The notes under the pieces were generated by a model. The model was not told the DNA's origin. It did not search any database and was given only the letters and a program-made list of their open reading frames with translations. A stretch of DNA of 64,000 nucleotides from a virus, in IMG/VR virus record IMGVR_UViG_3300043496_000014, positions 1-64,000 of that record. One strand, 5' to 3'. This document shows, piece after piece, positions 5,600-59,390 of the stretch. The position numbers and the translations under genes were made by a program. Position 1 is the stretch's first letter; every line of letters begins with the position of its first letter.

Positions 5600-5646
5600 A
5601 TGGACACTGGTCTGTGCTGGCACACAGGCTAGTGTCCATTTGTTTG
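5600..5646 (+). terminator. Rho-independent terminator
   Basis: A long hairpin starts ATGGACACT and ends AGTGTCCAT (5600-5639). About 17 pairs form with two G-U pairs and a short loop, followed by TTGTTTG. It lies about 100 bases after the RHH gene stop. Confidence 0.75.
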
Positions 5647-7045: not shown

Positions 7046-7074
7046 ATAATACACCCTCCACCGTATGGTGTCAA
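7046..7074 (-). promoter_or_regulatory. Sigma-70 promoter (early family)
   Basis: On the minus strand TTGACA (7074-7069), 17 bases, TATTAT (7051-7046). Upstream sequence AACAGCCATAAATGTA resembles that of other early promoters. It drives 6309-6998. Confidence 0.85.
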
Positions 7075-7154: not shown

Positions 7155-7182
7155 AACACCCTGACTGGTGTGTCAGGGTGTT
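7155..7182 (-). terminator. Intrinsic terminator
   Basis: An 11-bp stem AACACCCTGAC/GTCAGGGTGTT with a 6-base loop. On the minus strand it runs into TTTTGC. It ends the 7190-7381 transcript. Confidence 0.75.
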
Positions 7183-11868: not shown

Positions 11869-12294
11869 TCAATCGTAGCCAAAGCTGAAGTGCATGATGT
11901 CTGATGGCGGTATCAGGGTGGTTAGCAAGTCAGTGAAGGCACGTAGGGTGTACGGTGTATTACCCTGGAGTATCCACAGCTTGTTGTGTGTAATACCGTC
12001 ACGTCCGTACGTGTCAACGGTAGTTGTGGTGAACAGTTCCCTGACTGCTGTCATCAGTTGTGTGTCAGCTACTGTAGCAGGTAGCGTATCCCAATCCCAC
12101 ATGATGCTGATGGACGCATGCTTACTGGCCATTATGGTATCTGATCCCTGGTGTACAAATTCGTATTCCCGACGACCACACTTAGTGCCGAACCCTGGTG
12201 CACGGTCAATGCAGAAAGCACCTGCTGTACCATCTGACATGAATGGATGGAACGTTGACCACGATTTCACGTCACGCATTAGTTGCTCATGCAT
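11869..12294 (-). CDS. Hypothetical protein
   Basis: 141 residues, mixed alpha/beta, with WDWDTLPATV and a FSFGYD end. The start codon overlaps the region just after the stop of the upstream Cys-rich gene. No family recognised. Confidence 0.72.
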   Translation of the reverse strand: MHEQLMRDVKSWSTFHPFMSDGTAGAFCIDRAPGFGTKCGRREYEFVHQGSDTIMASKHASISIMWDWDTLPATVADTQLMTAVRELFTTTTVDTYGRDGITHNKLWILQGNTPYTLRAFTDLLTTLIPPSDIMHFSFGYD

Positions 12295-12584
12295 TAGTAG
12301 TTAGCTCCATGATTCTCACCTGAACAGGTGCACTCGCACACTGGTCCCTTGCTCGCACGACACTTGGCACCACAGGTAATCTTGTCAGAGTACTTACCCT
12401 GGACAGACTGACCGTACTTACCCTTGCCACACTCAGGACACGCCATCAACAGGAAACCACGAATACGGTACAGCTTGAAACCCTCTGGTGTGGTGGTGTC
12501 AGAAGTAGCCACACGTGTCACTGACTTGCACTCGTTGGTAGCCTTGTGACGGTAGATGATGTGACCACTGTTGTGTGCGTACAT
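12294..12584 (-). CDS. Cys-rich protein with CxCxCxGxNHG motif (copy 1)
   Basis: 96 residues from ATG 12584 with AGGAG upstream. A CPEC pair lies in the middle. The C-terminus reads CGAKCRASKGPVCECTCSG then ENHG, a multi-Cys/His motif also found at 20435-20617. This pattern recurs in uncharacterised phage proteins and probably binds zinc. It has its own promoter (12612-12641). Function unknown. Confidence 0.78.
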   Translation of the reverse strand: MYAHNSGHIIYRHKATNECKSVTRVATSDTTTPEGFKLYRIRGFLLMACPECGKGKYGQSVQGKYSDKITCGAKCRASKGPVCECTCSGENHGANY

Positions 12585-15061: not shown

Positions 15062-15505
15062 TTAGTCTGGTGCTTGTATGTAGGTTGTTAGGTGGTGTGC
15101 TAGTTTGGCAATATGTTGGGCTATGTTTGGGTCATACTTGTTAGCCTGCTGTGCCTGTACAGTGTAGTGTTGCATGCTGGCCAGCAACATATGTGCTATG
15201 TGTGCTGCACATGCTCGTTGGTATCCTGGCATCATAATGGCAGGTTGGGTGCACTTAGGTGTGTCGTTATGTGCTGTGTACTCACAAGTAGTGTAGTTGT
15301 GTGCAGGTGTTGGTGTGCCTGTTGCACCTACATGTTGGTACGTTGGTTGCTCACCTGTAGCTGGATTACCAGCAGTACGTTGTATGTACTTAGGCAGTGT
15401 AGGTGCCAACTGTGTGTTGCTAGGTGGTAGTTGGTGTGGCCTGTTGCTGTGTGTAGGTGGGCTGAAGGTAGGTGGGGGTGTGTTGTTGCTGTCATGGGTT
15501 GTCAA
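15062..15505 (-). CDS. Pro/Thr-rich protein with Cys pair
   Basis: 147 residues. The first 70 residues are Pro/Thr/Gln-rich and probably disordered. The rest has CEYTAHNDTPKC, a further CAAHIAHM and a helical C-terminus. It overlaps the 15492-15971 gene by 14 bases. Function unknown. Confidence 0.68.
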   Translation of the reverse strand: MTTHDSNNTPPPTFSPPTHSNRPHQLPPSNTQLAPTLPKYIQRTAGNPATGEQPTYQHVGATGTPTPAHNYTTCEYTAHNDTPKCTQPAIMMPGYQRACAAHIAHMLLASMQHYTVQAQQANKYDPNIAQHIAKLAHHLTTYIQAPD

Positions 15506-15971
15506 CGTAAATATACCTTCCTGTCACAGGATGCTTTATGCGTGTACGTTTGGCTTGCTGCTCGCGTACTTCCCTCATTTCTTCAGGTGTACGTTTCTTA
15601 CGTGGTTGTGCAGGTACTTCAGCCATATGTACGGCTATTGCACGCATACGTATACGGTTGGCACGTGTCCATTGGTGTGCTGTTATCTGTTGCCAATGGC
15701 TGTTGTGCTTCTCACGTTTGGCATTCATACGTGCACGTGTCATGATGTTTTTGGCACGCTTTACCAGTATGTCCCATTTGTTGGCATGCTGGTTGGTAGC
15801 TTGGTGCTTGTGATATATGGACAGTGCACTGTAGTATGCACGCTGTGCACGTAGTATGTTGGTGTGTGTATCGTTGGTAGGTTGCTGTGCATATGCACGG
15901 TCACATGCAACCAAGTGTTGGTGTAACTGTACTATGTGGTTGAGGGTTGGTGGTGGGTTGAAGGTGGGCAT
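15492..15971 (-). CDS. Basic helical protein
   Basis: 159 residues, very basic in the second half (KKRTPEEMREVREQQAKRT). ACAGGAG lies upstream of the start. A short conserved-looking end (HPVTGRYIYVDNP) follows. It may bind nucleic acid. It is the first gene left of the large palindrome, whose left arm overlaps its promoter. Confidence 0.7.
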   Translation of the reverse strand: MPTFNPPPTLNHIVQLHQHLVACDRAYAQQPTNDTHTNILRAQRAYYSALSIYHKHQATNQHANKWDILVKRAKNIMTRARMNAKREKHNSHWQQITAHQWTRANRIRMRAIAVHMAEVPAQPRKKRTPEEMREVREQQAKRTRIKHPVTGRYIYVDNP

Positions 15972-16002
15972 GGCTAGTAGGGTTCTCCTGTGGACTGATG
16001 CC

Positions 16003-16031
16003 AGTATACCACATAACAGGCAGTAAAGAAT
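16003..16031 (-). promoter_or_regulatory. Extended -10 promoter overlapping palindrome arm
   Basis: On the minus strand TGGTATACT (extended -10; hexamer TATACT at 16008-16003) with only a weak -35 (ATTCTT at 17 bases). It would drive 15492-15971. Its upstream part lies within the left arm of the 153-bp palindrome. Confidence 0.5.
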
Positions 16032-16167
16032 ATCCCTGCATCTAAGTAACCATATATCCTTTTATATGAATTGTATGTATGTTTAGTAAATTTTACTAAA
16101 CCTATATACTTTTGCTATAAAAGGGTATGAGGTATGTTAGATGCAGGTGTATTCTTTATTGCCTGTT
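16015..16167. repeat. 153-bp concentric imperfect palindrome (ori/ncRNA/MITE-like)
   Basis: Outer arms of 31 bases (16015-16045 and 16137-16167) are complementary with 3 mismatches. The core is a perfect 10+1+10 palindrome (16081-16101). Both share the centre 16091. The two 35-base segments between them are also complementary at about 23 of 35 positions with no length offset. The segment is A/T-rich and no gene is seen in it. It lies between two leftward genes. Possible roles: replication origin, structured RNA, hairpin-telomere or recombinase site, or a miniature mobile element. Confidence 0.85.
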
Positions 16168-16425
16168 TCAGACAGTACCATTCCCTAGATTCTCGATATA
16201 TCCAGTGATGAGCATGGAACATCGGTCACAAAAATGTTCCTTCAGGTAAATTTTGCCTAGCTTACCAATATTCTTTGGTTTAGATGGTGGTCTAATGCCT
16301 ACAGGCAAACGTGCGTCCCTCACGATACTACGTACCTTCCAGAAGGCATTATTAACATGTGTGGGTATGCCACATCCAGCACACTCCACAGTACCACTCT
16401 GTACTGTGCTCTGTTCTGGTTCCAT
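16168..16425 (-). CDS. Double CxxC zinc protein
   Basis: 85 residues. CAGCG near 15-19 and CDRC near 66-69 form a likely four-Cys zinc site, separated by a basic segment (PPSKPKNIGKLGKIYLK). The stop lies directly next to the right arm of the large palindrome. It follows 16428-16721 by 2 bases. Function unknown; DNA binding is possible. Confidence 0.73.
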   Translation of the reverse strand: MEPEQSTVQSGTVECAGCGIPTHVNNAFWKVRSIVRDARLPVGIRPPSKPKNIGKLGKIYLKEHFCDRCSMLITGYIENLGNGTV

Positions 16426-16427
16426 TA

Positions 16428-16721
16428 TTACTCCACCTTCCTTCCTTCCATTACTACTGACACATACTTATGGGTGCTAACGCTCACCAGATTGTCACAC
16501 ACAATCTTGTGAGTCAGCATGGTAGCAAACGTGGCCCACTGGTCACTCTCTACCTTACCAGTGACTTCATACTCCCATTCAGTAGGCTTTCTCTTTTCCT
16601 GCATAAACTTAGGGGTAACCACTCGCACATTCACGTTGGTAACCCCTGACACCTTAGTTAGTGCCACACGGTTAGCCGCGTCCACTCCACACACTGTTAC
16701 TGCCACATACTGTGCAAACAT
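16428..16721 (-). CDS. Hypothetical beta-rich protein
   Basis: 97 residues starting MFAQYVAVTVCGVD; GAGGAT lies upstream. Alternating hydrophobic strands suggest a beta fold. It has a promoter (16782-16811) with the TCAACTNAGTTGA operator just after the -10. Function unknown. Confidence 0.75.
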   Translation of the reverse strand: MFAQYVAVTVCGVDAANRVALTKVSGVTNVNVRVVTPKFMQEKRKPTEWEYEVTGKVESDQWATFATMLTHKIVCDNLVSVSTHKYVSVVMEGRKVE

Positions 16722-16769
16722 GGTTTGTATCCTCGTACCGTAGTCCGTTGCTGTGCTGTGTTGCTGTGT

Positions 16770-16782
16770 TCAACTAAGTTGA
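16770..16782. promoter_or_regulatory. Operator-like palindrome TCAACTAAGTTGA
   Basis: Perfect 6+1+6 palindrome directly downstream of the -10 of the promoter at 16782-16811. The same sequence, differing only in the central base, is at the same place at 17120-17132. Confidence 0.75.
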
Positions 16783-16811
16783 TTGTACCAAGTAAAGTGC
16801 ACCACGTGCAA
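16782..16811 (-). promoter_or_regulatory. Sigma-70 promoter with downstream operator
   Basis: TTGCAC (16811-16806), 18 bases, TACAAT (16787-16782) on the minus strand. Drives 16428-16721 and probably 16168-16425. Confidence 0.75.
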
Positions 16812-16813
16812 CC

Positions 16814-17086
16814 TTACTTAGCACGCTTCATTGTATAAATACGTGTGCACTCGTAACGGTTGTCCCATGTGCTCTGCACTATGTCACTCACCTGCACACC
16901 CTCCAGCATCTTGTAACCACGCTTGGCAGCTAGCACGTTAGCACGTCCCTCAGCAATTTCGGCGATGTCATGCCACCAACGTGCAGACATGTGCACGAAA
17001 AGGTGACCCTTGTGCTCACCCCACTTACGTAGATGTGCACTAATCTCCACACCTGTCATGTCAACCTGCTGCTGCTTGCGTGCCAT
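16814..17086 (-). CDS. Hypothetical basic protein
   Basis: 90 residues starting MARKQQQVDMTGVEI. Mixed alpha/beta with a basic C-terminus (YTMKRAK). Own promoter at 17132-17161 with the TCAACTNAGTTGA operator. No family recognised. Confidence 0.73.
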   Translation of the reverse strand: MARKQQQVDMTGVEISAHLRKWGEHKGHLFVHMSARWWHDIAEIAEGRANVLAAKRGYKMLEGVQVSDIVQSTWDNRYECTRIYTMKRAK

Positions 17087-17119
17087 TGTGTTGTACCGTC
17101 CAGTTCCTTGTTTCTGTGC

Positions 17120-17132
17120 TCAACTGAGTTGA
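17120..17132. promoter_or_regulatory. Operator-like palindrome TCAACTGAGTTGA
   Basis: Second copy of the palindrome, again touching the downstream edge of a -10 hexamer (TATAAT, 17137-17132). Confidence 0.75.
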
Positions 17133-17161
17133 TTATAGCAAGCTGTGGTGTGTGCACACAA
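17132..17161 (-). promoter_or_regulatory. Sigma-70 promoter with downstream operator
   Basis: TTGTGT (17161-17156), 18 bases, consensus TATAAT (17137-17132) on the minus strand. Drives 16814-17086. Confidence 0.72.
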
Positions 17162-17164
17162 CAA

Positions 17165-17392
17165 TTAGTGCACACACCTTTTAGCGTAGTCTAGCTTCAG
17201 CTTATCGAGGCATGGTGCACAGATACCGTGTAGCATGCTGTGTCTTACGTACACCTTACCACCATTACCACGCACCACATACTGCCACGTAAACAGCTTA
17301 GGCATGCCACCTAGCCACTGTGTGCCACACTCCACACACAGCACACCCTTTAGTGTGCTGTGTGTCTGCGAGCTACCATACTTACTCAACAT
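17165..17392 (-). CDS. Double CxxC zinc protein
   Basis: 75 residues. CVEC near 19-22 and CAPC near 58-61 with a His nearby suggest a zinc ribbon. The start overlaps the 3' end of 17382-17729, so it is in that operon. Function unknown. Confidence 0.73.
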   Translation of the reverse strand: MLSKYGSSQTHSTLKGVLCVECGTQWLGGMPKLFTWQYVVRGNGGKVYVRHSMLHGICAPCLDKLKLDYAKRCVH

Positions 17393-17729
17393 GGCTCATG
17401 CACTTCACGCACATGCTATCAGGTAGCGCGTCTGCGTTGATAGGCTCACTACGTGGTGTGGCGTACACGCGCGTCTGACGTTGGATGCACAGCACACGCG
17501 ACTCAGCAAGTGCAGCACGATAGTTGCGCTCGTACTGCTTGTAGGCAGCACTCTGGAAATGCGCGCGTAGTTCCTCCGAGTCATCTTCCTTGGTTCGCAC
17601 GTACTCTGGCTTGGCGTTGCGTGCTGCAATGATCCGTTCAGCATGCTTAGCGTTCATCAGGTGGTTCTTACCAGTAGCGTATGCAGGGTAGAAGGTCTGT
17701 GTGCGAAGGTTGACTACTAGGCGTGCCAT
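17382..17729 (-). CDS. Basic protein with C-terminal CVKC
   Basis: 115 residues from ATG 17729 (MARLVVNLRTQTFYP) with GGGA upstream. Highly charged helical middle and CVKCMSH near the end. Own promoter at 17777-17805. Codon use is of the optimised type. Function unknown. Confidence 0.75.
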   Translation of the reverse strand: MARLVVNLRTQTFYPAYATGKNHLMNAKHAERIIAARNAKPEYVRTKEDDSEELRAHFQSAAYKQYERNYRAALAESRVLCIQRQTRVYATPRSEPINADALPDSMCVKCMSHVE

Positions 17730-17776
17730 GTTGTTGTCCCTGTGTGGTTTGGTGTGGTGTTTCGTTCCACACTCAT

Positions 17777-17805
17777 ATAATAGCACGCACCCACACACCA
17801 CGCAA
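17777..17805 (-). promoter_or_regulatory. Sigma-70 promoter (early family, variant B)
   Basis: TTGCGT (17805-17800), 17 bases, TATTAT (17782-17777) on the minus strand. Upstream AATGGGTATAGATAATTA resembles the element at 7423-7451. Confidence 0.78.
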
Positions 17806-17841
17806 TAATTATCTATACCCATTACACGTGTTACGTGCACA

Positions 17842-18027
17842 CTAGCTGTGGCTCATGTCAGCCAGCATGGTCTGTGCACGTTCTACTAGCTTTCGGTACA
17901 CCCGTATGTCATTGCTCTGTACACTGGGTGCTACTACCTGTAGTATCTTCTCTAGCATGTCTGCTGCATCCTCCAGGTTGCCTGCAAGGTCTTCTATCAA
18001 GTCGTGTAGTTCTTCTGTGTTAGTCAT
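17842..18027 (-). CDS. Small acidic helical protein
   Basis: 61 residues (MTNTEELHDLIEDLAGN start), chosen because ATGA at 18024-18027 overlaps the upstream stop. All-helical with heptad-like Leu/Ile spacing; possibly a dimer-forming coiled coil. Function unknown. Confidence 0.7.
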   Translation of the reverse strand: MTNTEELHDLIEDLAGNLEDAADMLEKILQVVAPSVQSNDIRVYRKLVERAQTMLADMSHS

Positions 18028-18347
18028 GGTGTGTACTTCCATTTCCTACGCCTGTTCACTCTATCGGTCATGGCAGCTATCTGACTGAATAGTCTGTTGT
18101 CCATAGGCTGTGCCTCTATATGGGTACTAGCTACCACGTACCCTTTATTGCCTCCACCCAACACAAATTCCCTACCATCTGCATGGCTAAGTATGGCACG
18201 TATGGTATTGCCTTTGAGTCCAGTTACAGCAGCTATGGTGCCTACTGTTATGGGTACTCTAGTTGCACGCACCAGTGCACACACTATGTTGTATTCGTAT
18301 GGTTTCCAGTTAGTTTTACCTGTTCCATGTATCCCTTGTGTTTCCAT
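18024..18347 (-). CDS. Possible winged-helix/HTH protein
   Basis: 107 residues. The segment IVCALVRATRVPITVGTIAA and then VTGLKGNTIRAILSHADG resembles a winged-helix unit (helix, recognition helix, basic wing with GGGNKGYVV). The C-terminus is basic. Likely a small DNA-binding regulator. Confidence 0.62.
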   Translation of the reverse strand: METQGIHGTGKTNWKPYEYNIVCALVRATRVPITVGTIAAVTGLKGNTIRAILSHADGREFVLGGGNKGYVVASTHIEAQPMDNRLFSQIAAMTDRVNRRRKWKYTP

Positions 18348-18475
18348 GCTGTGCTAAGCTGCCTCTTTCCTCAAACCTGTGTCAGAGTAGACTAAGGTCA
18401 GTGTAGTTGTAACTAACGGCTAACGCACTGCATGTAGAACCCTGTGCAGTTCCGAGAAAATCTGCCAATACAGTG

Positions 18476-19000
18476 TTACGCATAGCTGTTTAAGAAGTCC
18501 CATGCACGTTTGTTCCAATGTGCATCAGCTAATGCGTTATGCTCATCTTTACCTTCAGCAGGTAGCTTTGGGTTACCAAGCATGTCTGCCCATTGTTTAA
18601 TGTCACGACAATACATGGGCCATCCTCTTGGTAGCTGCATCATAGTGCCAAATAGCTGGCACAACACTACCCAGTCATAATCAGCATAGTAACCCCAAAA
18701 CTCTGGCCAACCGTATAGCTGTGCGTCACAGAAGCGTATTAGCTCACGTGCTATCTGTGTACGTGTCAGTAAGCCACCTGTACCACCATCACGTATCCAT
18801 CTGTTTGCATCACGTTTGTCTGCTTGTCGTGACCATAGTTTAGTTACTACATTCTCACGTACCCACTCGTTAGCTCTGGACAGATTAGCTTCACTATTCT
18901 CAGCATAAAACTCTCTACCATCCTCACACACCATACCAATGCTCACTAACTCAATAGTGTGTCCATCCTCGATAAACTCTGTGTCAATCCAGTACTTCAT
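18476..19000 (-). CDS. DEDDh 3'-5' exoribonuclease-like protein (Rv2179c type)
   Basis: 174 residues. Motif I DTE at residues 6-8, motif II in YADYDW (Asp near 108) and motif III HNALADA (His near 151, Asp near 156) are the DEDDh catalytic residues. Length and the WIDTEFIEDG start match the Rv2179c-like RNase AS domain, a 3'-5' RNA exonuclease. It may degrade host or phage RNA early in infection. It overlaps the preceding gene by ATGA. Confidence 0.82.
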   Translation of the reverse strand: MKYWIDTEFIEDGHTIELVSIGMVCEDGREFYAENSEANLSRANEWVRENVVTKLWSRQADKRDANRWIRDGGTGGLLTRTQIARELIRFCDAQLYGWPEFWGYYADYDWVVLCQLFGTMMQLPRGWPMYCRDIKQWADMLGNPKLPAEGKDEHNALADAHWNKRAWDFLNSYA

Positions 19001-19332
19001 GAGTCATCATCCTCCTGTGTGTTACCTTCTAATTCGTCCCATTCGTCTGCTGTCCATTGCAGAGGGAACAGAATAGCGTGTATGGCTTTCTCGTGTCTTC
19101 TACCCATTTCCTCTGGTGTTGCATCTAGTGTTCTATCGTGTATCCAACGAGACATGTAGTCTCCAACTACATCAGGTTTAGACATACCTGCACGTATGCC
19201 CAACACAAATGCCAAGTGTATAGCAGCATGTATATTGAGCACCTTACCCTTGTACGTTACTTGGTGGCAGTTGCTAATAGCTGTGTACTCCACACGCCTA
19301 TCAACATCTTCTCTCTGTTTACTACTGACCAT
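18997..19332 (-). CDS. Hypothetical protein
   Basis: 111 residues with an acidic C-terminus (NTQEDDDS). Coupled to the exonuclease gene by ATGA and to the membrane protein gene upstream. No family recognised. Confidence 0.7.
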   Translation of the reverse strand: MVSSKQREDVDRRVEYTAISNCHQVTYKGKVLNIHAAIHLAFVLGIRAGMSKPDVVGDYMSRWIHDRTLDATPEEMGRRHEKAIHAILFPLQWTADEWDELEGNTQEDDDS

Positions 19333-19768
19333 TCGTTATGCCTATATTCCACATAAGTACCATACCAACCATGATACCAACAGCAGCAGTGCTTAGTAGC
19401 AATACAAATACCAGTGCAGTACCTACACGTGTATTGGCATGCTCCACAAGGTGTGTTAGCTCATCCTTACGTACTAACACACAGTCCCTGATATGCAGGT
19501 TCTGTGACAGTACATTGAAGATGTGTGCATCGTTACGTGCTTCAACGCTAACGGTATTGGTATGTGTGGTCTGCTGGTCATGAAGCCAAGCTGCATAGAA
19601 TGCCCAAAATGCAGCTTTGTTCCATATGTCATCCGAATCTTTTAGGTGTGCAAACTTCTCGAAGGGTACAGGTGTGGTTGGGTTAGGCAAGTCCAGGTGT
19701 TTCACCAATTCGCCGACGGATTCCAAACCATTCACTGAGTTGTCAGCATCTTTAGGCATACCAACCAC
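19322..19768 (-). CDS. Tail-anchored membrane protein
   Basis: 148 residues. A soluble N-terminal domain is followed by a single hydrophobic span (ALVFVLLLSTAAVGIMVGMV, about 117-138) at the C-terminus. The soluble part would face the cytoplasm. Function unknown; an early membrane protein could block superinfection or host processes. Confidence 0.7.
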   Translation of the reverse strand: MVGMPKDADNSVNGLESVGELVKHLDLPNPTTPVPFEKFAHLKDSDDIWNKAAFWAFYAAWLHDQQTTHTNTVSVEARNDAHIFNVLSQNLHIRDCVLVRKDELTHLVEHANTRVGTALVFVLLLSTAAVGIMVGMVLMWNIGITNGQ

Positions 19769-19771
19769 CCC

Positions 19772-20149
19772 CTATCCTACTCTAGTCACAACAACGTTGC
19801 CACTATCTACCCACATTACGTGGTAGATGGCAACACCGTTAGGATGGCACACGTTCCAGAATCGTTCAACATCCTTAGCTGCTTCAGCTTCAATGCAAGC
19901 AACACCTAGAGTGAACGACAAGCCACCATTACTGTACATTACATGATTCACATGTGAATCAGTAATGATGTGCTTACCACTCTCTGGTGTGTTGCCAACG
20001 ATACGCACCACTGCTTGCTCAGGTACCACGCTCATGCCACTCTCCATGCGTGCTATGACTCGTGACACTTCCTCATGGGTTAGTGCACGATCCTGTATGG
20101 TGTGCCAACCGTACGTTGCTATCTGTTCCCTACTAGGTATACGTCTCAT
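19772..20149 (-). CDS. Hypothetical protein
   Basis: 125 residues, mixed alpha/beta. It overlaps the SWIM zinc gene upstream by 17 bases. No family recognised. Confidence 0.7.
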   Translation of the reverse strand: MRRIPSREQIATYGWHTIQDRALTHEEVSRVIARMESGMSVVPEQAVVRIVGNTPESGKHIITDSHVNHVMYSNGGLSFTLGVACIEAEAAKDVERFWNVCHPNGVAIYHVMWVDSGNVVVTRVG

Positions 20150-20438
20150 CTTGCAGTGCTTCCTGCTTTACTCGTTTGTCTTCACGATCCATCACCCTTT
20201 GCACATGCTTACAACGAGTCTTCAGGTTGTTTGCCTGACAGGTACACTCCCATGCTTCACGTAGGGTGTTGAACCACACAGTGTAGTGCACATGCTTATC
20301 CAGGTTATACACCGTGTAATATCCAGCTTCACGCACTACTCCACGTACTCTGTCAAATGTAGGTGCGTGGTAGATTGCACGTAGTCTACTGCTGGTAGCA
20401 CGCACACGTGCACGTTCACTAGCTGTTGCTGTTTTCAT
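20133..20438 (-). CDS. SWIM zinc-finger protein
   Basis: 101 residues. WECTCQ...TRCKHVQRV matches the SWIM pattern CxCx(n)CxH. SWIM domains bind DNA or proteins. The N-terminus is very basic. It is coupled by ATGA-like overlap with the adjacent Cys-motif gene. Confidence 0.78.
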   Translation of the reverse strand: MKTATASERARVRATSSRLRAIYHAPTFDRVRGVVREAGYYTVYNLDKHVHYTVWFNTLREAWECTCQANNLKTRCKHVQRVMDREDKRVKQEALQDETYT

Positions 20439-20617
20439 ATTGCCTTTGCCTTTGTTGGTTTCTGCTTACGCCACCATGTAGCGTACTGTCTTAGCCAGTC
20501 ACCATGATTCTTACCAGCACATTCACACTGACATGCACTGCTATCAGTGTGCGCCTGTAGGCAGTTAGCAGTGCAGTAGTTGGGTACGTCACGTATTGTG
20601 AACGGTGTATGGCTCAC
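20435..20617 (-). CDS. CxCxCxGxNHG zinc protein (copy 2)
   Basis: 60 residues from GTG 20617 with AGGAAC 7 bases upstream; a longer start would overlap the previous gene. CTANCLQAHTDSSACQCECAG followed by KNHG repeats the motif of 12294-12584. A basic tail follows. It overlaps the SWIM gene start. Function unknown. Confidence 0.74.
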   Translation of the reverse strand: MSHTPFTIRDVPNYCTANCLQAHTDSSACQCECAGKNHGDWLRQYATWWRKQKPTKAKAI

Positions 20618-20627
20618 TTGTTTGTTC

Positions 20628-20816
20628 CTATTCCTGCTTTGCAATGAGGCATTCCTTGCAGTTAGGTTCCAGCATACTTTTGTTCTGTAAGTGTGGGTTA
20701 CCAAACACTGACACTACAAACAGTGTTAGGTATTCACCACACCATGCTACTCTGGTCTGTTCATCCCTAATGGCATGCTTGGTGCTCTTAGCACCAACGT
20801 ATCCATACAGTGCCAT
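20628..20816 (-). CDS. Small protein with CKEC
   Basis: 62 residues; starts MALYGYVGAKSTKH and ends with CKECLIAKQE. It begins 2 bases before the stop region of 20819-21055. Metal binding possible. Confidence 0.68.
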   Translation of the reverse strand: MALYGYVGAKSTKHAIRDEQTRVAWCGEYLTLFVVSVFGNPHLQNKSMLEPNCKECLIAKQE

Positions 20817-20818
20817 GC

Positions 20819-21055
20819 TTAGTTAGCCTCCACCCATACACGTGCATCCTGGTACACACCACTCATGGTGACCTTCAGATTGGTCATGGGGCCAAACTTG
20901 GTACTGTTGTGCATCAACCGTGCACCACGATCCATTTCCTCGATAACCACACTGCGCGAGCCGTCCGTACGAATCATGCTAGTGATGTAGTTGTAAGTAC
21001 CCTCGATACGCTCGCGTGTGACGGTAACCTGTGGAGTGCTGGTGAATGGCGACAT
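20819..21055 (-). CDS. Hypothetical small protein
   Basis: 78 residues from ATG 21055 with AGGAC upstream. Beta-rich. It has its own promoter (21094-21122) and optimised codons. No family recognised. Confidence 0.74.
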   Translation of the reverse strand: MSPFTSTPQVTVTRERIEGTYNYITSMIRTDGSRSVVIEEMDRGARLMHNSTKFGPMTNLKVTMSGVYQDARVWVEAN

Positions 21056-21093
21056 GGTGTGTGTCCTGTCTCTGTGTTTGGTGCGCTGAAGCA

Positions 21094-21122
21094 ATGATAG
21101 CACACACCACCCCTTATTGCAA
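21094..21122 (-). promoter_or_regulatory. Sigma-70 promoter (early family, variant A)
   Basis: TTGCAA (21122-21117), 17 bases, TATCAT (21099-21094) on the minus strand, with upstream CAAAACAGACTAAAATGGGTA. Confidence 0.75.
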
Positions 21123-21130
21123 TACCCATT

Positions 21131-21436
21131 TTAGTCTGTTTTGGGCACTGTACGTCTAGAACCTGTACGTGGTTGTGGTTTGTAGCGTGAAGGTTCAGGC
21201 AAGTCAGGACAACGCATGCTCCAGGTGATATCAGGCACAAGTGCACCCAGTATGAACACTAGACCACATTTACACGGTGCTTGACTGCATACCATACGTC
21301 CATCACTACCATGATGCCAGTGTCCCTTACGTTGTAGCTCACAGTCCAGTGTATGTGTGCAGTACTTAAAGAACTGTTTAGCTAGTTCCTTAAACTCTGC
21401 ATGCCATTCATTTTCACTGTTGTACGGTTGCTGCAT
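21131..21436 (-). CDS. Cys-rich protein
   Basis: 101 residues. CTHTLDC, CSQAPCKCG and a later Cys suggest a zinc cluster. The C-terminus is Pro/Arg-rich. First of several Cys-rich genes up to 22424. Function unknown. Confidence 0.7.
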   Translation of the reverse strand: MQQPYNSENEWHAEFKELAKQFFKYCTHTLDCELQRKGHWHHGSDGRMVCSQAPCKCGLVFILGALVPDITWSMRCPDLPEPSRYKPQPRTGSRRTVPKTD

Positions 21437-21441
21437 GCTGT

Positions 21442-21663
21442 CTACGCTACCTGCTTTATGGGAGTAGGGTTGTCCATAGGAGGAAGGCTACCAGAGGCTG
21501 TGAGCGTCGATTCTAGGGCACTCCTTTGCAGGGCAGCTATGGAGAGGCTACTAGCACCCTTGACCCACGCCACGAGGCACCCACGAGCAGCTAGGCACAC
21601 CCACGCACCCTGGACCCTTACCAAGTCCCTGCTAGGCAGTGCCTGACCACAGATGACACACAT
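21442..21663 (-). CDS. Small protein with CVICG and CLAARGC
   Basis: 73 residues; four Cys at both ends of the first half fit a treble-clef-like zinc site. AAGG lies upstream of the start. The local base composition is richer in GC than the neighbours. Function unknown. Confidence 0.68.
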   Translation of the reverse strand: MCVICGQALPSRDLVRVQGAWVCLAARGCLVAWVKGASSLSIAALQRSALESTLTASGSLPPMDNPTPIKQVA

Positions 21664-21667
21664 ACTG

Positions 21668-21886
21668 TTAATCCTTACCTGTAGTAGGTGCGTAGTTCTC
21701 TACATGTTCATCTAGTGCAGACTCGTAGATAGGCATGATCTGTCCTATGGGTGTGTTTACTATCCAACGTGTGAGACACATACGCCTGTTCTTACAGACT
21801 CGTTGGTTTACACGCACAACTAGGTTTGCTGCATAGTCCCATGTAAACCCACACAGGAAGCACTGTGTTGCTTGTGTTGTGCTCAT
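21668..21886 (-). CDS. Small zinc protein
   Basis: 72 residues from ATG 21886, chosen for its ATGA overlap with the upstream stop. CFLCG and CKNRRMC form a likely zinc site like that of the next gene downstream. Function unknown. Confidence 0.72.
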   Translation of the reverse strand: MSTTQATQCFLCGFTWDYAANLVVRVNQRVCKNRRMCLTRWIVNTPIGQIMPIYESALDEHVENYAPTTGKD

Positions 21887-22137
21887 GTTGTTACCACCAG
21901 TCTTGTGTGCCATACACGTGCCTGTTGTATACAGTCAAACATGGCAAAGGTGTTTAGTTCGTCACGTCCAAGTACAGCAGCTACAGCCTGTGCCATTTGT
22001 TCGATAACATCAGTGTAGCTCAGGTGTTCCTGTGGTGGTGCGTGTGACTGCCAACGTGCACACCTGGATATGTCACCCTCCTGTGTCTGTCCTACAAACG
22101 CACACCTTGGCTGTGGTGCCATCTGGCTAGGTTTCAT
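21883..22137 (-). CDS. Small Cys-containing helical protein
   Basis: 84 residues. Two Cys in the N-terminal third and one later. Helical C-terminal part. Coupled by ATGA overlaps on both sides. Confidence 0.7.
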   Translation of the reverse strand: MKPSQMAPQPRCAFVGQTQEGDISRCARWQSHAPPQEHLSYTDVIEQMAQAVAAVLGRDELNTFAMFDCIQQARVWHTRLVVTT

Positions 22138-22424
22138 TGTTCCTCGTGTCCAAACCCAAATCCACTACCAAATGGTGAGTCTATTACGCTGACCTTGGCA
22201 TACGTACCACAGAAGTCACAGCTAACGGTACAAGCCACAAACAACGTGCTATTGTCTTCACCCTCAATAACAGATATGCAAGCAAAGCTGCTTGTGTTGG
22301 CAGATATACCGCACCACAAACACACATGTGCACGCATATTGCCTGCTAGTGTAGCTAGAAACCACTTAGATATGGATGGTGGAAACTCTACTGCTTGTCC
22401 ATCAGTCATGCGTGACAGTGGCAT
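22134..22424 (-). CDS. Double CxxC zinc protein
   Basis: 96 residues; CLWC and CDFC about 35 residues apart form a likely zinc ribbon with the Gly/Phe-rich C-terminus. Coupled by ATGA to the next gene. Confidence 0.72.
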   Translation of the reverse strand: MPLSRMTDGQAVEFPPSISKWFLATLAGNMRAHVCLWCGISANTSSFACISVIEGEDNSTLFVACTVSCDFCGTYAKVSVIDSPFGSGFGFGHEEQ

Positions 22425-22444
22425 GGTACTTAGCTACCCTTCTT

Positions 22445-22672
22445 TTACTCTATGCGAGTTTCGGCTAAGAACGTGTTGAATTCTTCCACGAAATTACGTC
22501 CACTCTGTCCCTGTTCTACACGCCACTCTCTGTACTCGTTAGTATCAGTTGGGCCACAAGTTGCACGCCAATACTGCAACTCTAGCCATGCGCTATACAT
22601 CACTGCAAGCTGCATTTCGTCCAATAGGTGCATGGTATGTGCGTGGGGCCAGTACTTGTGTACTAGCCCCAC
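22445..22672 (-). CDS. Hypothetical helical protein
   Basis: 75 residues if a GTG start at 22672 is used; that GTG touches the AGGAGG, so a start about 13 codons later (MHLLDEMQ) is also possible. All-helical. Located directly after the UvrD-like helicase gene. Function unknown. Confidence 0.58.
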   Translation of the reverse strand: MGLVHKYWPHAHTMHLLDEMQLAVMYSAWLELQYWRATCGPTDTNEYREWRVEQGQSGRNFVEEFNTFLAETRIE

Positions 22673-22693
22673 CCTCCTGTGTGATGTGTGCTG

Positions 22694-24202
22694 CTACTGG
22701 ATAACCACACTCTCTACAAAGTAGAGGGTATCCAGGCTACGGGTGACTGCCACGTACTTCAGGTTGGTTTCTTGCACCTGCTGCCAGGGCTGTGTAGCGT
22801 ACTTGGATGGCATCAGGTGTCCGTCCAGGATGTAGACGGTATGTGCCTCCATCCCTTTTGCTCTGTGAATGGTGCTCAACGTTGTGCGGTGTCCGTTGCC
22901 ATCATCGGTGAACAGTGAACGGATGACACCAATCACACTAAACACGCTTCTGTCATCCTCTGGCAGTCCATCAATGATGGCCAGAATACTTTCATACTGA
23001 TCCATCAGTCGTTCAGCCTTGGACTCGTTACGCTTGGCCATTGCTGCTTGCACTTCACGCTGAGTGTAGGTGTCTAGCTTGTCGGCTAGTTCCTCCAGGT
23101 TTGCAGCACGCATTTTCTGAACCAGTGACACAAGCTGTTCACCAATGTCACGTCCCATAACCTTCACTGCCTTGTGTGCCTTCAAGAAACGGTAGGCCAG
23201 TGTGACCAGTGGAGCGGTGTTACGGCACAGCACAAGGTCCAGGGTGGTAAAGCTAGCCAGTTCCATCGTGTCTAGCTTCTTGACGGTACCTTCTGGTGCG
23301 TTCTCACGTGCTTCAATGTCAGGCACAATGCGCTGTGCCAGAGCAACCACCTTACGTGGGCAACGGTACGAAATACTGAGTGGGAACCGTGCACACTTGA
23401 AGTCATCCTGGATAGCTTGCATGGCACTGGAATCCGCACCACGAAATGCGTAGATAGCCTGTGCCTCATCACCAACAAACACCGCACGTGCGTCCCTACC
23501 CAACATTCGAGCAATCAACAGGCGTTGAATCTTGTTGGTATCCTGTGCTTCATCCACCATCAGGTGACTGTACTTGATAAGTGGAGCGTTCAGTAGCCAG
23601 CACAGGTACAGCATGTCATCAAAGTCAATGGAGTCAAGGGTGTCATTGTTGATGGCCAGTGCTTCACGTGCAATCTTCAGTGCCACGTGGGTGTTGTCAG
23701 TGTTTTGGCCATCCTCTGAGAATTCGATGTCGTATCGCTCAACGAGTGCCAACAACTCTGATTCGTCACACTCTGGCATCAGTGCGTTAGCCTTCATCAG
23801 CCCAACAAGCTGACGCACACCCTTACGCACTGCCTCAATGGTAGTGGCACCGTACGTGTTGTGCATGGAGTCCAGGATGTTGTGCACCTTGTTGCTCTGC
23901 ACCCACCCTCGTGAATTGGCGTACTGTGCACAGGCAGGGTGGCGACGTAGTGCCTGCATGCACACACTGTGGAACGTAGCTGCCTGCACGTGCTTAGGCA
24001 ATCGGCGCTGTAGCTCAGTAGCAATTGCCTTGTTGAAGGCAAGGAAGGCAGCACGTGTGCCCACAGGTGAAATCTCGTCACTGAGCATGCACAGGGTGCT
24101 GGTCTTACCACTCCCTGCCTTGGCGCTAACAATCGCGTTGCCAGTGTCGTTGCGCAACCAGTCAATGATTGCCTGCTGGTAGATGCTTGGTGCCATTGCC
24201 AC
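22694..24202 (-). CDS. UvrD/PcrA-like superfamily 1A helicase
   Basis: 502 residues from GTG 24202, chosen because AGGAG is 7 bases upstream; ATG 24196 is the alternative. Motif I AGSGKTST (about 29-36), motif II DEAQD (about 215), motif III GDEAQAIYAFRGA, motif IV YRCPRK (about 280), motif V TIHRAKG (about 443) and motif VI VAVTRS (about 483) are all present. It unwinds DNA during replication or repair. It has its own early-family promoter and CTG/ATC-type codons, so strong expression is expected. Confidence 0.92.
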   Translation of the reverse strand: MAMAPSIYQQAIIDWLRNDTGNAIVSAKAGSGKTSTLCMLSDEISPVGTRAAFLAFNKAIATELQRRLPKHVQAATFHSVCMQALRRHPACAQYANSRGWVQSNKVHNILDSMHNTYGATTIEAVRKGVRQLVGLMKANALMPECDESELLALVERYDIEFSEDGQNTDNTHVALKIAREALAINNDTLDSIDFDDMLYLCWLLNAPLIKYSHLMVDEAQDTNKIQRLLIARMLGRDARAVFVGDEAQAIYAFRGADSSAMQAIQDDFKCARFPLSISYRCPRKVVALAQRIVPDIEARENAPEGTVKKLDTMELASFTTLDLVLCRNTAPLVTLAYRFLKAHKAVKVMGRDIGEQLVSLVQKMRAANLEELADKLDTYTQREVQAAMAKRNESKAERLMDQYESILAIIDGLPEDDRSVFSVIGVIRSLFTDDGNGHRTTLSTIHRAKGMEAHTVYILDGHLMPSKYATQPWQQVQETNLKYVAVTRSLDTLYFVESVVIQ

Positions 24203-24245
24203 GTTGTTTCTCCTGTGGGCTGTCTCTGCTAGCCCCCACACACAT

Positions 24246-24275
24246 AGTATGCCTGATGCAGGCACCCAGTGTCAA
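24246..24275 (-). promoter_or_regulatory. Sigma-70 promoter (early family, variant A)
   Basis: TTGACA (24275-24270), 18 bases, CATACT (24251-24246) on the minus strand, upstream CAAAACGTCCATAATGGGTA. Confidence 0.75.
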
Positions 24276-24301
24276 TACCCATTATGGACGTTTTGAGCAC
24301 T

Positions 24302-24718
24302 CTACCCTATGCACTCTTGTTTGCTACACGGTTCAAAGCAAATACCGTGTTGTAGGGAAGCCTCCAGCATGGTAGTGACACCTAGTCCTGCTAGGTACGT
24401 ATTGCACTGTGCTTCACTAACAATAATGTACGGACCAGAATTTGGGTTGTGTGGTTCCCATGCGTGTACGTGTGGTGTCTCCTGTACCTGTTTCTGCTTG
24501 TGCTGACCAATGTGCCACACGTTAGTAATCATGATGGTGCTGATAGCCATGTTGTATCCAGCTATCTCACCAGTCATTTCAATGTACGTGTGGGAACGTG
24601 GTGCATGCTTTGCACGCTTTTGTTTCAATTCATCCACGTTACCTTGGTACACATGCACCAATGCCTGGAGCACACTATACGGTGTCTGCTCACCATCACT
24701 ATCAAGAATCAACATCAC
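24302..24718 (-). CDS. Hypothetical protein with C-terminal Cys
   Basis: 138 residues starting MMLILDSDGEQTPYSV. Helical N-terminal part, and CFEPCSKQEC at the end. Coupled to the upstream gene by TGATG. No family recognised. Confidence 0.7.
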   Translation of the reverse strand: MMLILDSDGEQTPYSVLQALVHVYQGNVDELKQKRAKHAPRSHTYIEMTGEIAGYNMAISTIMITNVWHIGQHKQKQVQETPHVHAWEPHNPNSGPYIIVSEAQCNTYLAGLGVTTMLEASLQHGICFEPCSKQECIG

Positions 24719-25095
24719 TCGTTACTCCATTCCTGTTGAACCGTGAACGTGAACGGTACGGACTCACGTGCATCACAACTACCCACACATACACGTGCAT
24801 GCGTGCATGTGGTCATGTACCCTTGCATGTGGTGCATCATGTCTGCCAGTGGATCAGTTGTACCAGACGCATTTCTACTTGACGTATGCACTAGTTCACC
24901 ATCCACATACATTTCAACAGTATATGGACGACCACTAATCAACGCACTATGCATTACTAGATGCACCTTGCGTACTCGTGTACCCATTGCACTAGACACC
25001 GTATCTGTGCCTCCCACCATCAGACTGAAAACAGTGTAGCACCAACCAGCAGATACTGTCAATACAAGGTGTGCTGTCCGTTTAGGGTGCTGCAT
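24715..25095 (-). CDS. Hypothetical beta-rich protein
   Basis: 126 residues from ATG 25095 (MQHPKRTAHLVLTVSAG) with AGGAGG upstream. Mostly beta with CTHARVCVGSC near the C-terminus. First leftward gene left of the control region. Function unknown. Confidence 0.72.
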   Translation of the reverse strand: MQHPKRTAHLVLTVSAGWCYTVFSLMVGGTDTVSSAMGTRVRKVHLVMHSALISGRPYTVEMYVDGELVHTSSRNASGTTDPLADMMHHMQGYMTTCTHARVCVGSCDARESVPFTFTVQQEWSNE

Positions 25096-25248
25096 TATTG
25101 CCTCCTGGGTACAAGGTGTGCTAAGCTGTGCGTAGTGGCCTAGTGGTACAGGTGGGCAGGAAAGCCGCATTAGGAGACGTTGACATCGGCTGCCGCCTCC
25201 TAGGAACCCCTGTGCAAGGCAAGGAAATTACGAGGATTGGTGCAACAC
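25096..25248. other. Control region, divergent leaders
   Basis: Gap of 153 bases between the leftward 24715-25095 gene and the rightward RHH gene. A GC-richer segment (25155-25202) can fold with interlocking stems: AGCCG (25163-25167) with CGGCT (25187-25191), and TAGGAG (25171-25176) with CTCCTA (25197-25202). That is the layout of an H-type pseudoknot. No convincing promoter hexamers were found. Confidence 0.5.
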
Positions 25249-25620
25249 ATGACAAGCGTACTTATGGTGAAGGTTTCACCAGAATTCAAGGCAGCTATCG
25301 AGGAAGCTGCCAATGTAGATGCAGATGCAGACGGTAACCTGAGTGAATTTATCAGGGAATGTGTAGCCACGTCCATTGGCTACGATTTGAGCAGTGATAC
25401 TGCAATGGATGGACGTGGTAGACCACGTACGTACGAAACAGATGAACAGCGTATGCAGGCTAGGCGTGAAGCTGAACGTGCACGGCAGCTACACCGTAAG
25501 CAGGTGGTAGAAGCCATCATGAAACAGAACCGACTAGAAAGCATAGATGCTCTGGAGGCATGGCTAGCACAACGAGGTATCAGTGTTACAGACGACGTGG
25601 AATTAGCTCAGTCGGCGTAA
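25249..25620 (+). CDS. RHH-like DNA-binding regulator
   Basis: 123 residues (start ATG 25249; GTG 25240 possible). The N-terminus has LMVKVSPEFKAAIEEAANVD then LSEFIRECVATSIG, an RHH strand-helix-helix. A basic helical C-terminus follows. It resembles the RHH gene at 4971 in layout (RHH then basic helices, with DPLS-like linkers). It runs toward the leftward 25586-25885 gene and overlaps it by 35 bases tail to tail. Confidence 0.74.
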   Translation: MTSVLMVKVSPEFKAAIEEAANVDADADGNLSEFIRECVATSIGYDLSSDTAMDGRGRPRTYETDEQRMQARREAERARQLHRKQVVEAIMKQNRLESIDALEAWLAQRGISVTDDVELAQSA

Positions 25621-25885
25621 CTACCACCATACCTGTGCCGATTGCTTCCAGTAGCAATGACACGTTACCCTGGTTTGCATGCGTGTAGCCTAGCTGTGCT
25701 GCTACACGCTGCAAGCCTATGTGTGCGTTAACAGATAACCGTGCACTAATCAGGCGTTTAGGTGCATCAGTTTTAGGTGGCCTAAGTGCATGTCCATTCA
25801 AGTGTTTCTTGATAATCTCTACAGCTTGTGCATCATCTTCATACACATAGTGTGGTCGTTCGTTGTTGCTATTACCATCACTCAT
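25586..25885 (-). CDS. RHH-like protein, paralogous domain
   Basis: 99 residues. RLISARLSVNAHIGLQRVAAQL followed by VSLLLEAIGTGMVVV suggests a strand and two helices. The C-terminal LLEAIGTG matches VLEAVGTG of the next gene, so both share a domain. Coupled to 25878-26324 by an 8-base overlap. Confidence 0.68.
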   Translation of the reverse strand: MSDGNSNNERPHYVYEDDAQAVEIIKKHLNGHALRPPKTDAPKRLISARLSVNAHIGLQRVAAQLGYTHANQGNVSLLLEAIGTGMVVVTPTELIPRRL

Positions 25886-26324
25886 CTGTTTGTTCCTCCA
25901 CTTTAATCCAACCTGTACCTACTGCTTCGAGTACTGCTGCCATACACTGTGGGCCATCAACGTAGGTAGGTGCACCTACTATGCGTCTACTTGGTACGTA
26001 CGCTATGCCTAGAAGCATGGCCCACTTACTGGCATCAACCAATGCGTCACGTGTCAGTGTCACCTTACGTCGTCTGCGTGGTGAGTACAAACGCCACTCA
26101 GGTGACATACCTGCTTCTAACATCTCATGGTCATACTCGCGTATCTCTGGTGGTCTGTTGTCCACTAACTGTTGTCTCACTATCCATTCAAAGTAGTGGT
26201 GTATGCCTTTGGCATTGTCCCTACCATGTTGGAACCCTAGCCTACGTCCTACATCAACAAGTACGTCATATGCTTCATCTGTGATGTACAGGACACAGCT
26301 TACTGTCTGACTCAAATCGTTCAT
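25878..26324 (-). CDS. Putative two-module DNA-binding repressor
   Basis: 148 residues. Two similar modules: VSCVLYITDEAYDVLVDVGRRL near the N-terminus and VTLTRDALVDASKWAMLLGI then AVLEAVGTGWIKV at the C-terminus. The second module is shared with 25586-25885. The promoter at 26342-26371 lies so close that the leader is only about 11 bases, as with near-leaderless repressor transcripts. Its position divergent from the late operon suggests a switch protein; this is inference. Confidence 0.65.
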   Translation of the reverse strand: MNDLSQTVSCVLYITDEAYDVLVDVGRRLGFQHGRDNAKGIHHYFEWIVRQQLVDNRPPEIREYDHEMLEAGMSPEWRLYSPRRRRKVTLTRDALVDASKWAMLLGIAYVPSRRIVGAPTYVDGPQCMAAVLEAVGTGWIKVEEQTDE

Positions 26325-26341
26325 AGGTCACCCATTCCTGT

Positions 26342-26371
26342 AGTATATACAGTCTTCCCTCTCCGAGTCAA
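26342..26371 (-). promoter_or_regulatory. Strong leftward promoter of control region
   Basis: TTGACT (26371-26366), 18 bases, TATACT (26347-26342) on the minus strand. Predicted start about 26335, only about 11 bases before the ATG at 26324. Confidence 0.78.
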
Positions 26372-26382
26372 GGTGGCCAACT

Positions 26383-26430
26383 GGTACCTGTTCTTAGCTG
26401 CTTACCTATGGTAAGATGGCAGTAGGTACC
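26383..26430. promoter_or_regulatory. Nested inverted repeats at start of late operon
   Basis: GGTACCT (26383-26389) and AGGTACC (26424-26430) surround CTTACC-TAT-GGTAAG (26401-26415), a perfect inner palindrome with almost the same centre. TAAGAT at 26411-26416 may be a rightward -10, so a bound protein would block late transcription. The -35 is poor, suggesting activation. Confidence 0.55.
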
Positions 26431-26432
26431 CT

Positions 26433-26561
26433 ATGACTACCGTAACACCTGTACAACACACATGTGTCTACTGTAAGGTACGTCTCACTATTAAAGTGAA
26501 GACAACAGATGGCTATGTGTGTCCTGAGTGTTACCATACACGAGTCATGACACAAAGATGA
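26433..26561 (+). CDS. 42-residue zinc-ribbon protein, first late gene
   Basis: CVYC (about 11-14) and CPEC (about 31-34) form a clear zinc ribbon. The stop overlaps the TerS start as ATGA (26558-26561). Reading starts at ATG 26433 just after the nested inverted repeats. Such small zinc proteins often precede terminase genes; function unknown. Confidence 0.72.
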   Translation: MTTVTPVQHTCVYCKVRLTIKVKTTDGYVCPECYHTRVMTQR

Positions 26562-58899: not shown

Positions 58900-59390
58900 A
58901 TGCCTAAAGCCTTTGCTAACTTTCTTTCCAGTTTCCTTGTTTCGTTATGTTCCAGTTGCCACGATGTTGTACACTCTTTACACTGTTTGTCACCTTCAAC
59001 TCTTTTATGTAATCTTTTCTTACACAATCCCAATTCTATATACGAACCTAGCTGTATGTATTCTTTTATAGCATTCATAAACTGTTCCTCCTTTACTTCA
59101 TCTAGATACTCACTTAGTAGTGAATACACCACTTCTACATCATGTATCGTTTGTACACTCCAAGCGTATCGCGGCTTGTATTGCTCAGCAGTAGACTTCT
59201 TGTATATGTTACCAATTCCAACGATACGCTGAAATCTGGCTAATACGGTTGGCACATCGTCAGTGTACGATGATTGTGTTATAGAACACGAAATTGATCT
59301 ACAATTATCTCTGGCACGTTGACTGCAACCAACGTAACCCTCACCATCAAAGAAACCTGCTGCCCATGCTAGTTCTGTTTCTGTACTCAT
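58896..59390 (-). CDS. LAGLIDADG homing endonuclease, free-standing
   Basis: 164 residues from ATG 59390 (ATGA overlap with the polymerase stop). AWAAGFFDGEGYVG (about 8-21) is one LAGLIDADG motif, with catalytic Asp/Glu; a single copy means a dimer. C-terminal KQCKEC may bind metal. Base composition is more A/T-rich than neighbours (for example TTTCTTTCC runs), a sign of recent transfer. It sits precisely between polymerase and resolvase genes. Confidence 0.85.
   Translation of the reverse strand: MSTETELAWAAGFFDGEGYVGCSQRARDNCRSISCSITQSSYTDDVPTVLARFQRIVGIGNIYKKSTAEQYKPRYAWSVQTIHDVEVVYSLLSEYLDEVKEEQFMNAIKEYIQLGSYIELGLCKKRLHKRVEGDKQCKECTTSWQLEHNETRKLERKLAKALGI

Follow-up and report, generated by a model that had tools for sequence, protein, structure and literature searches.

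A so far unique 153-bp palindrome at a strand-composition switch in a freshwater phage genome, a candidate boundary element

The early region of the phage genome studied here contains a 153-bp palindrome. This long inverted repeat is real, exceptional and, so far, unique, and none of the tested families claims it. At this site the GC skew of the genome changes sign while gene direction remains constant, and it flips back at ~26.4 kb. We tentatively prefer the reading that the palindrome acts as a DNA-level boundary element of genome replication where forks may meet, with low to moderate confidence in the mechanism. We rank this reading first since, of the independent signals, only the skew flip without a change in gene direction is both strong and linked to the palindrome.

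The phage is a freshwater bacterial virus known from environmental DNA. The window, i.e., the whole stretch of 64,000 bases that was analysed, comprises bases 1-64000 of a source record of 66,244 bases. The record ends overlap by ~210 bases at 92% identity, indicating that the genome is complete or nearly complete. Terminase, portal, head protease and major head protein genes are located on the + strand from 27 kb, and the major head protein is closest to those of Arthrobacter and Gordonia phages (up to 52%). The early gene set lies mostly on the − strand. This set encodes helicases (UvrD and an SNF2-type enzyme), RNase H and an exonuclease, together with primase, Sak4 and a uracil-DNA-glycosylase/DNA-polymerase-A fusion; thymidylate synthase, dCTP deaminase and a Holliday-junction resolvase also belong to it. 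Judging by gene content, this is apparently a lytic tailed phage. The glycosylase-polymerase fusion (window 59387-61792) has a 73% relative on the 14 kb contig L114.

The palindrome comprises the following parts:

16015..16167, no strand: palindrome, 153 bp, centre 16091, ungapped
16015..16045, + strand: outer left arm, 31 nt, differing from the right arm at 3 positions
16081..16101, no strand: perfect core, 21 nt, GTTTAGTAAATTTTACTAAAC
16137..16167, − strand: outer right arm, 31 nt, pairs with the left arm

The dimensions reported by the initial annotation were all re-derived. The arms (16015-16090 and 16092-16167) are complementary at 61 of 76 positions, with 15 mismatches, zero offset and no indel. 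The outer arms differ at columns 9, 19 and 20, the middle 35-base segments match at 23 positions, and the outer left arm contains a G+C-richer stretch, CCTGCATCTAA. Mismatches are unevenly distributed, with 3/41 in the outer arms and core versus 12/35 in the middle (p = 0.004, for a split chosen post hoc); this patchiness fits either constraint or patchy template-switch correction. At local composition, the chance of at least 61 matches is 1.5e-20 per centre and 2e-15 over all centres, which bears out the view of the palindrome as exceptional. The second-ranked ungapped palindrome of the window scores 12, versus 46 for this one. Across ~1.5 Mb of UvrD-related phage loci, a single other element came near in score (45). 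It is a further inverted repeat, imperfect and very long, between divergent genes of the distantly related G004 (L045:7092-7327).

The palindrome is non-coding and single-copy and, in line with the initial annotation, no other 150 bp of the genome is as AT-rich (29% GC); these properties favour a replication boundary. Folding of both strands, a check proposed by the initial annotation, yielded −72.8 kcal/mol (z −14) for + strand RNA and −56.2 kcal/mol (z −10.9) for − strand RNA. Folded as DNA, the two strands were near-equal (−33.2 and −31.7).

Searches of viral contigs, named phages, plasmids and bacterial genomes revealed no relative of the palindrome except in the near-identical phage G001 (IMGVR_UViG_3300009148_000011), which carries it without any difference. 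No copy of the outer-arm pattern was found in GTDB genomes. A core scan for orthologous palindromes returned nothing beyond the identical relative, the six other matches of an arm-hairpin scan were at chance level, and scans with both neighbouring proteins detected no further orthologous locus. Contig L114 is too short to reach the palindrome site. The suggested search for the arms in related phages was thus productive only to the extent of one identical copy, which leaves zero pair changes to count for covariation. An assembly chimera is an unlikely source of the palindrome, since the two arms share no more than 80% identity, and it recurs unchanged in a second contig. Compared with the window, G001 has an insertion of ~430 bases near 12.3 kb (12294-12308), and register is lost from 19.74 kb (19737). 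No description of such an element was found in a literature search.

The surroundings of the palindrome contain the following features:

15492..15971, − strand: downstream neighbour gene, 159 aa, without a family match
15964..16386, no strand: GC-skew change point, best 16161; gene direction same on both sides
16003..16008, − strand: possible −10 box TATACT for the 15492-15971 gene, just outside the palindrome, proposed from sequence only
16168..16425, − strand: upstream neighbour gene, 85 aa, rich in Cys, with a weak hint of a zinc finger
16168..26324, − strand: leftward early block, ends at the palindrome; + strand C-rich
18476..19000, − strand: RNase H, in the leftward early block
22694..24265, − strand: UvrD helicase, in the leftward early block
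26325..26527, no strand: divergent early/late gap; skew flips back, and forks would diverge here

According to codon usage, start sites and ribosome-binding sites, the genes on both sides of the palindrome are coded on the − strand, so a + strand RNA would be antisense to its neighbours, as the initial annotation had noted. The stop codon of the 16168-16425 gene abuts the palindrome end, and the start codon of the 15492-15971 gene is 44 bases away. The candidate TATACT box at 16003..16008 has no good −35. Well-formed promoter-like sites that point leftward (ATTGACA, spacing 17-18, TATACT-like) occur on the − strand throughout 7-26.4 kb, and this spread suggests that the blocks on either side of the palindrome are both probably transcribed leftward. 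Near-identical ATTGACA-N17/18-(TG)TATACT sites on the − strand were located at window positions 7074, 10535, 10792, 11856, 12641, 14426, 24275, 25062 and 26371, and this promoter-like set is confined to the early region. The sequence TCAACTnAGTTGA is present in two copies, at window positions 16770-16782 and 17120-17132, each shortly before the start of a leftward gene. The pair is a possible operator, although with two mismatches permitted its count does not exceed chance.

GC skew turns from + to − at 16161 (near-best range 15964-16386). The contrast at this change point was tested by 500 block shuffles, and the observed value was reached in 0/500. When only fourfold-degenerate sites were counted and gene strand was kept fixed, coding-strand skew was −0.117 on the left versus +0.124 on the right (p = 1e-4). 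Two early genes beside the palindrome (window 15062-15971) are oddly composed, with fourfold-site coding-strand GC skew of −0.54 and −0.68; the left-side value was also obtained at 6-12 kb, away from them. AT skew shows no flip at the palindrome. Strand asymmetry thus switches here independently of gene direction, as expected at a terminus or site of fork convergence, whereas the reversion at ~26.4 kb coincides with a change in gene direction. Segment inversion was considered as a cause of the flip and is unsupported, because the two genes with G003 homologues, 20133-20438 and UvrD, are flipped relative to G003 but retain their order.

By the usual convention, a change from + to − at 16.1 kb has the sign of fork convergence and not that of an origin. 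The GC-skew mapping advised by the initial annotation therefore located a switch close to the palindrome and supported a role in replication, but not the replication origin that had been offered as one option. A G-rich leading strand is a general convention, uncalibrated for this phage; if it holds, the forks part near 26.4 kb and come together at 16.1 kb. We infer the following course of events. Forks would start near the early/late divergence at ~26.4 kb, one moving rightward round the genome and the other leftward through 26-16 kb, and would meet at 16.1 kb. At the meeting point, the AT-rich inverted repeat could extrude as a hairpin or cruciform, which might pause or end fork movement. In RNA, the same structure may help to end the leftward transcript of the adjoining 16168-16425 gene. 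Replication and transcription boundaries are compatible functions, as the palindrome could be the place where leftward and rightward traffic meet. If fork convergence is true, a lytic phage fixes where its replication ends; to our knowledge, a fixed terminus is not usual in lytic phages. It is unlikely that the palindrome is a built-in terminus in the stronger sense of stopping the shorter-way fork and so fixing the meeting point 10 kb from the start site.

Two distant relatives were compared. The window and G003 (63,982 bases, with a terminal repeat of 127) have terminase (51%), UvrD (40%), PolA (37-40%) and a large part of the early set in common; for G002 this holds only for UvrD and PolA. 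In both, the strongest hairpins lie at a local cumulative GC-skew maximum (41.2-41.8 kb in G003 and 47.6-48.1 kb in G002), which agrees with a replication boundary. However, these hairpins are unrelated in sequence to the window palindrome and are located at convergent gene junctions, where gene direction alone explains the skew. A further 26 UvrD loci showed no general association, which counts against a replication boundary, and they did not support hairpins as a general mark of the UvrD block end. G003 also contains, at 45.9-47.0 kb (L105:5900-7000), an AT-rich non-coding stretch of ~1 kb in which a 46-nt repeat occurs four times alongside a hairpin with 39-nt arms; it looks like a replication origin of that phage. 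The only motif common to this region and the palindrome was an 11-mer, at chance level. No comparable palindrome was present in the Queuovirinae phages NP1 and 9g (first 50 kb only) or in Sphingomonas phage MMDA13. Phage 9g has a 1-kb non-coding gap (L022:24867-25903) that is 86-93% conserved in Nonagvirus and contains long inverted repeats of a weak kind; the words non-coding, hairpin and palindrome do not occur in the 9g paper (PMC4276943).

Among other explanations, a transcription boundary was ranked a close second, given that a stop codon abuts the palindrome and that two relatives have analogous hairpins. Where the leftward UvrD/RNase H block has its 3′ end, an RNA hairpin would serve in termination or protection or be cut in RNase III-like fashion, and it would also separate this block from the next leftward unit. 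We regard this as possible but somewhat doubtful. The palindrome begins right at the stop codon of the 16168-16425 gene, in the ~1.5 Mb of UvrD-bearing loci long hairpins are denser in convergent gaps (4.3 per 10 kb) than inside genes (0.32), and G002 and G003 have long hairpins where the leftward UvrD block ends. However, the palindrome is placed between co-directional genes, its stem is more stable in the antisense (+) RNA, and there is no compact G+C-rich stem with a U-tract behind it. An intrinsic-terminator scan did not list the site, the T-rich bases of which fall within the stem, and the phage has ordinary terminator-like hairpins elsewhere, e.g., at 5600-5639 (+) and 6285-6259 (−). A transcription boundary alone does not explain the skew flip, and as an operon-end hairpin the palindrome would be unusually large. 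A small or double-stranded RNA from the + strand, antisense to the flanking leftward units, has a slim chance of being the function. Its stronger fold and the mismatches speak for it: the 5:0 G-U bias described in the initial annotation is real, all five transition-type mismatches being G-U on the + strand (5 G-T, zero A-C). The selected RNA hairpin deduced from this bias follows less well. The bias has p = 0.06, G or T on the + strand accounts for 23/30 of the mismatched bases, and the stretch beside the palindrome is itself G/T-rich on that strand; strand-biased mutation can thus give much of the G-U excess. In addition, no convincing + promoter adjoins the palindrome, and the sole Rfam matches were far under gathering scores (best 33 bits versus 190). 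Late antisense read-through ending at the palindrome was considered possible and set aside, since strong + strand terminator-like sites (5600-5639 and 7155-7182) intervene.

The remaining explanations concern DNA. Replication starting at the palindrome, with the usual skew sign reversed, would suit an AT-richest non-coding palindrome at the skew switch; it is nevertheless improbable, given a sign of convergence rather than divergence, the lack of iterons beside the palindrome, and a second flip at 26.4 kb that it leaves unexplained. Slightly less credit is due to a functionless quasi-palindrome kept near-perfect by template-switch correction, or to what is left of an inverted-repeat insertion. 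Quasipalindromes are an established setting for template switching (PMC7202029). Such switching would suit the patchy identity described above, and the failure to find a relative in any collection searched agrees with a functionless element. Coincidence with the skew flip argues otherwise. The flanks, CACAT and TCAGA, differ, so there is no target-site duplication, and no copies were found elsewhere except in the near-identical phage; both points also count against a relic, and the single-copy palindrome is accordingly disfavoured as the miniature inverted-repeat or scattered mobile element that had been envisaged. Near-perfect palindromes of ~150 bp tend toward instability and loss in bacteria, which also speaks against a functionless one, and here one persists in a compact genome within ~200 bp of a strand-composition switch; persistence together with this coincidence makes the element worth testing. 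A hairpin telomere or recombinase target, also listed among the original options, is very improbable. Palindrome shape would suit it, and a skew maximum is also expected at a chromosome end. However, domain searches of the genome found no protelomerase (PF16684, no match at E ≤ 1, while controls matched), tyrosine integrase (PF00589) or serine recombinase (PF00239), which leaves such a site unsupported; gene content is that of a lytic phage, and the palindrome is ~3 times the length of the N15 telRL site, which is roughly 50 bp.

Compared with known systems, the palindrome combines familiar and unfamiliar traits. It resembles telRL of N15-type telomere phages as a single long palindrome at a skew maximum, but is much longer and belongs to a genome in which no protelomerase domain or lysogeny genes were found. 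Like phage and plasmid origins with inverted repeats, it is AT-rich, non-coding, palindromic and placed at a composition switch; unlike them, it has the skew sign of convergence and no iterons alongside. With bacterial quasipalindromes that act as template-switch hotspots it shares an imperfect inverted repeat, a perfect core and patchy identity, but it is located at a composition boundary and is far longer than typical mutational quasipalindromes. Phage terminator hairpins at convergent junctions are likewise non-coding inverted repeats directly after a stop codon, whereas the palindrome lies between co-directional genes, has 76-nt arms, lacks a U-tract and is AT-rich. We rate it as an unusual variant of the boundary hairpins known in phages, with a candidate function.
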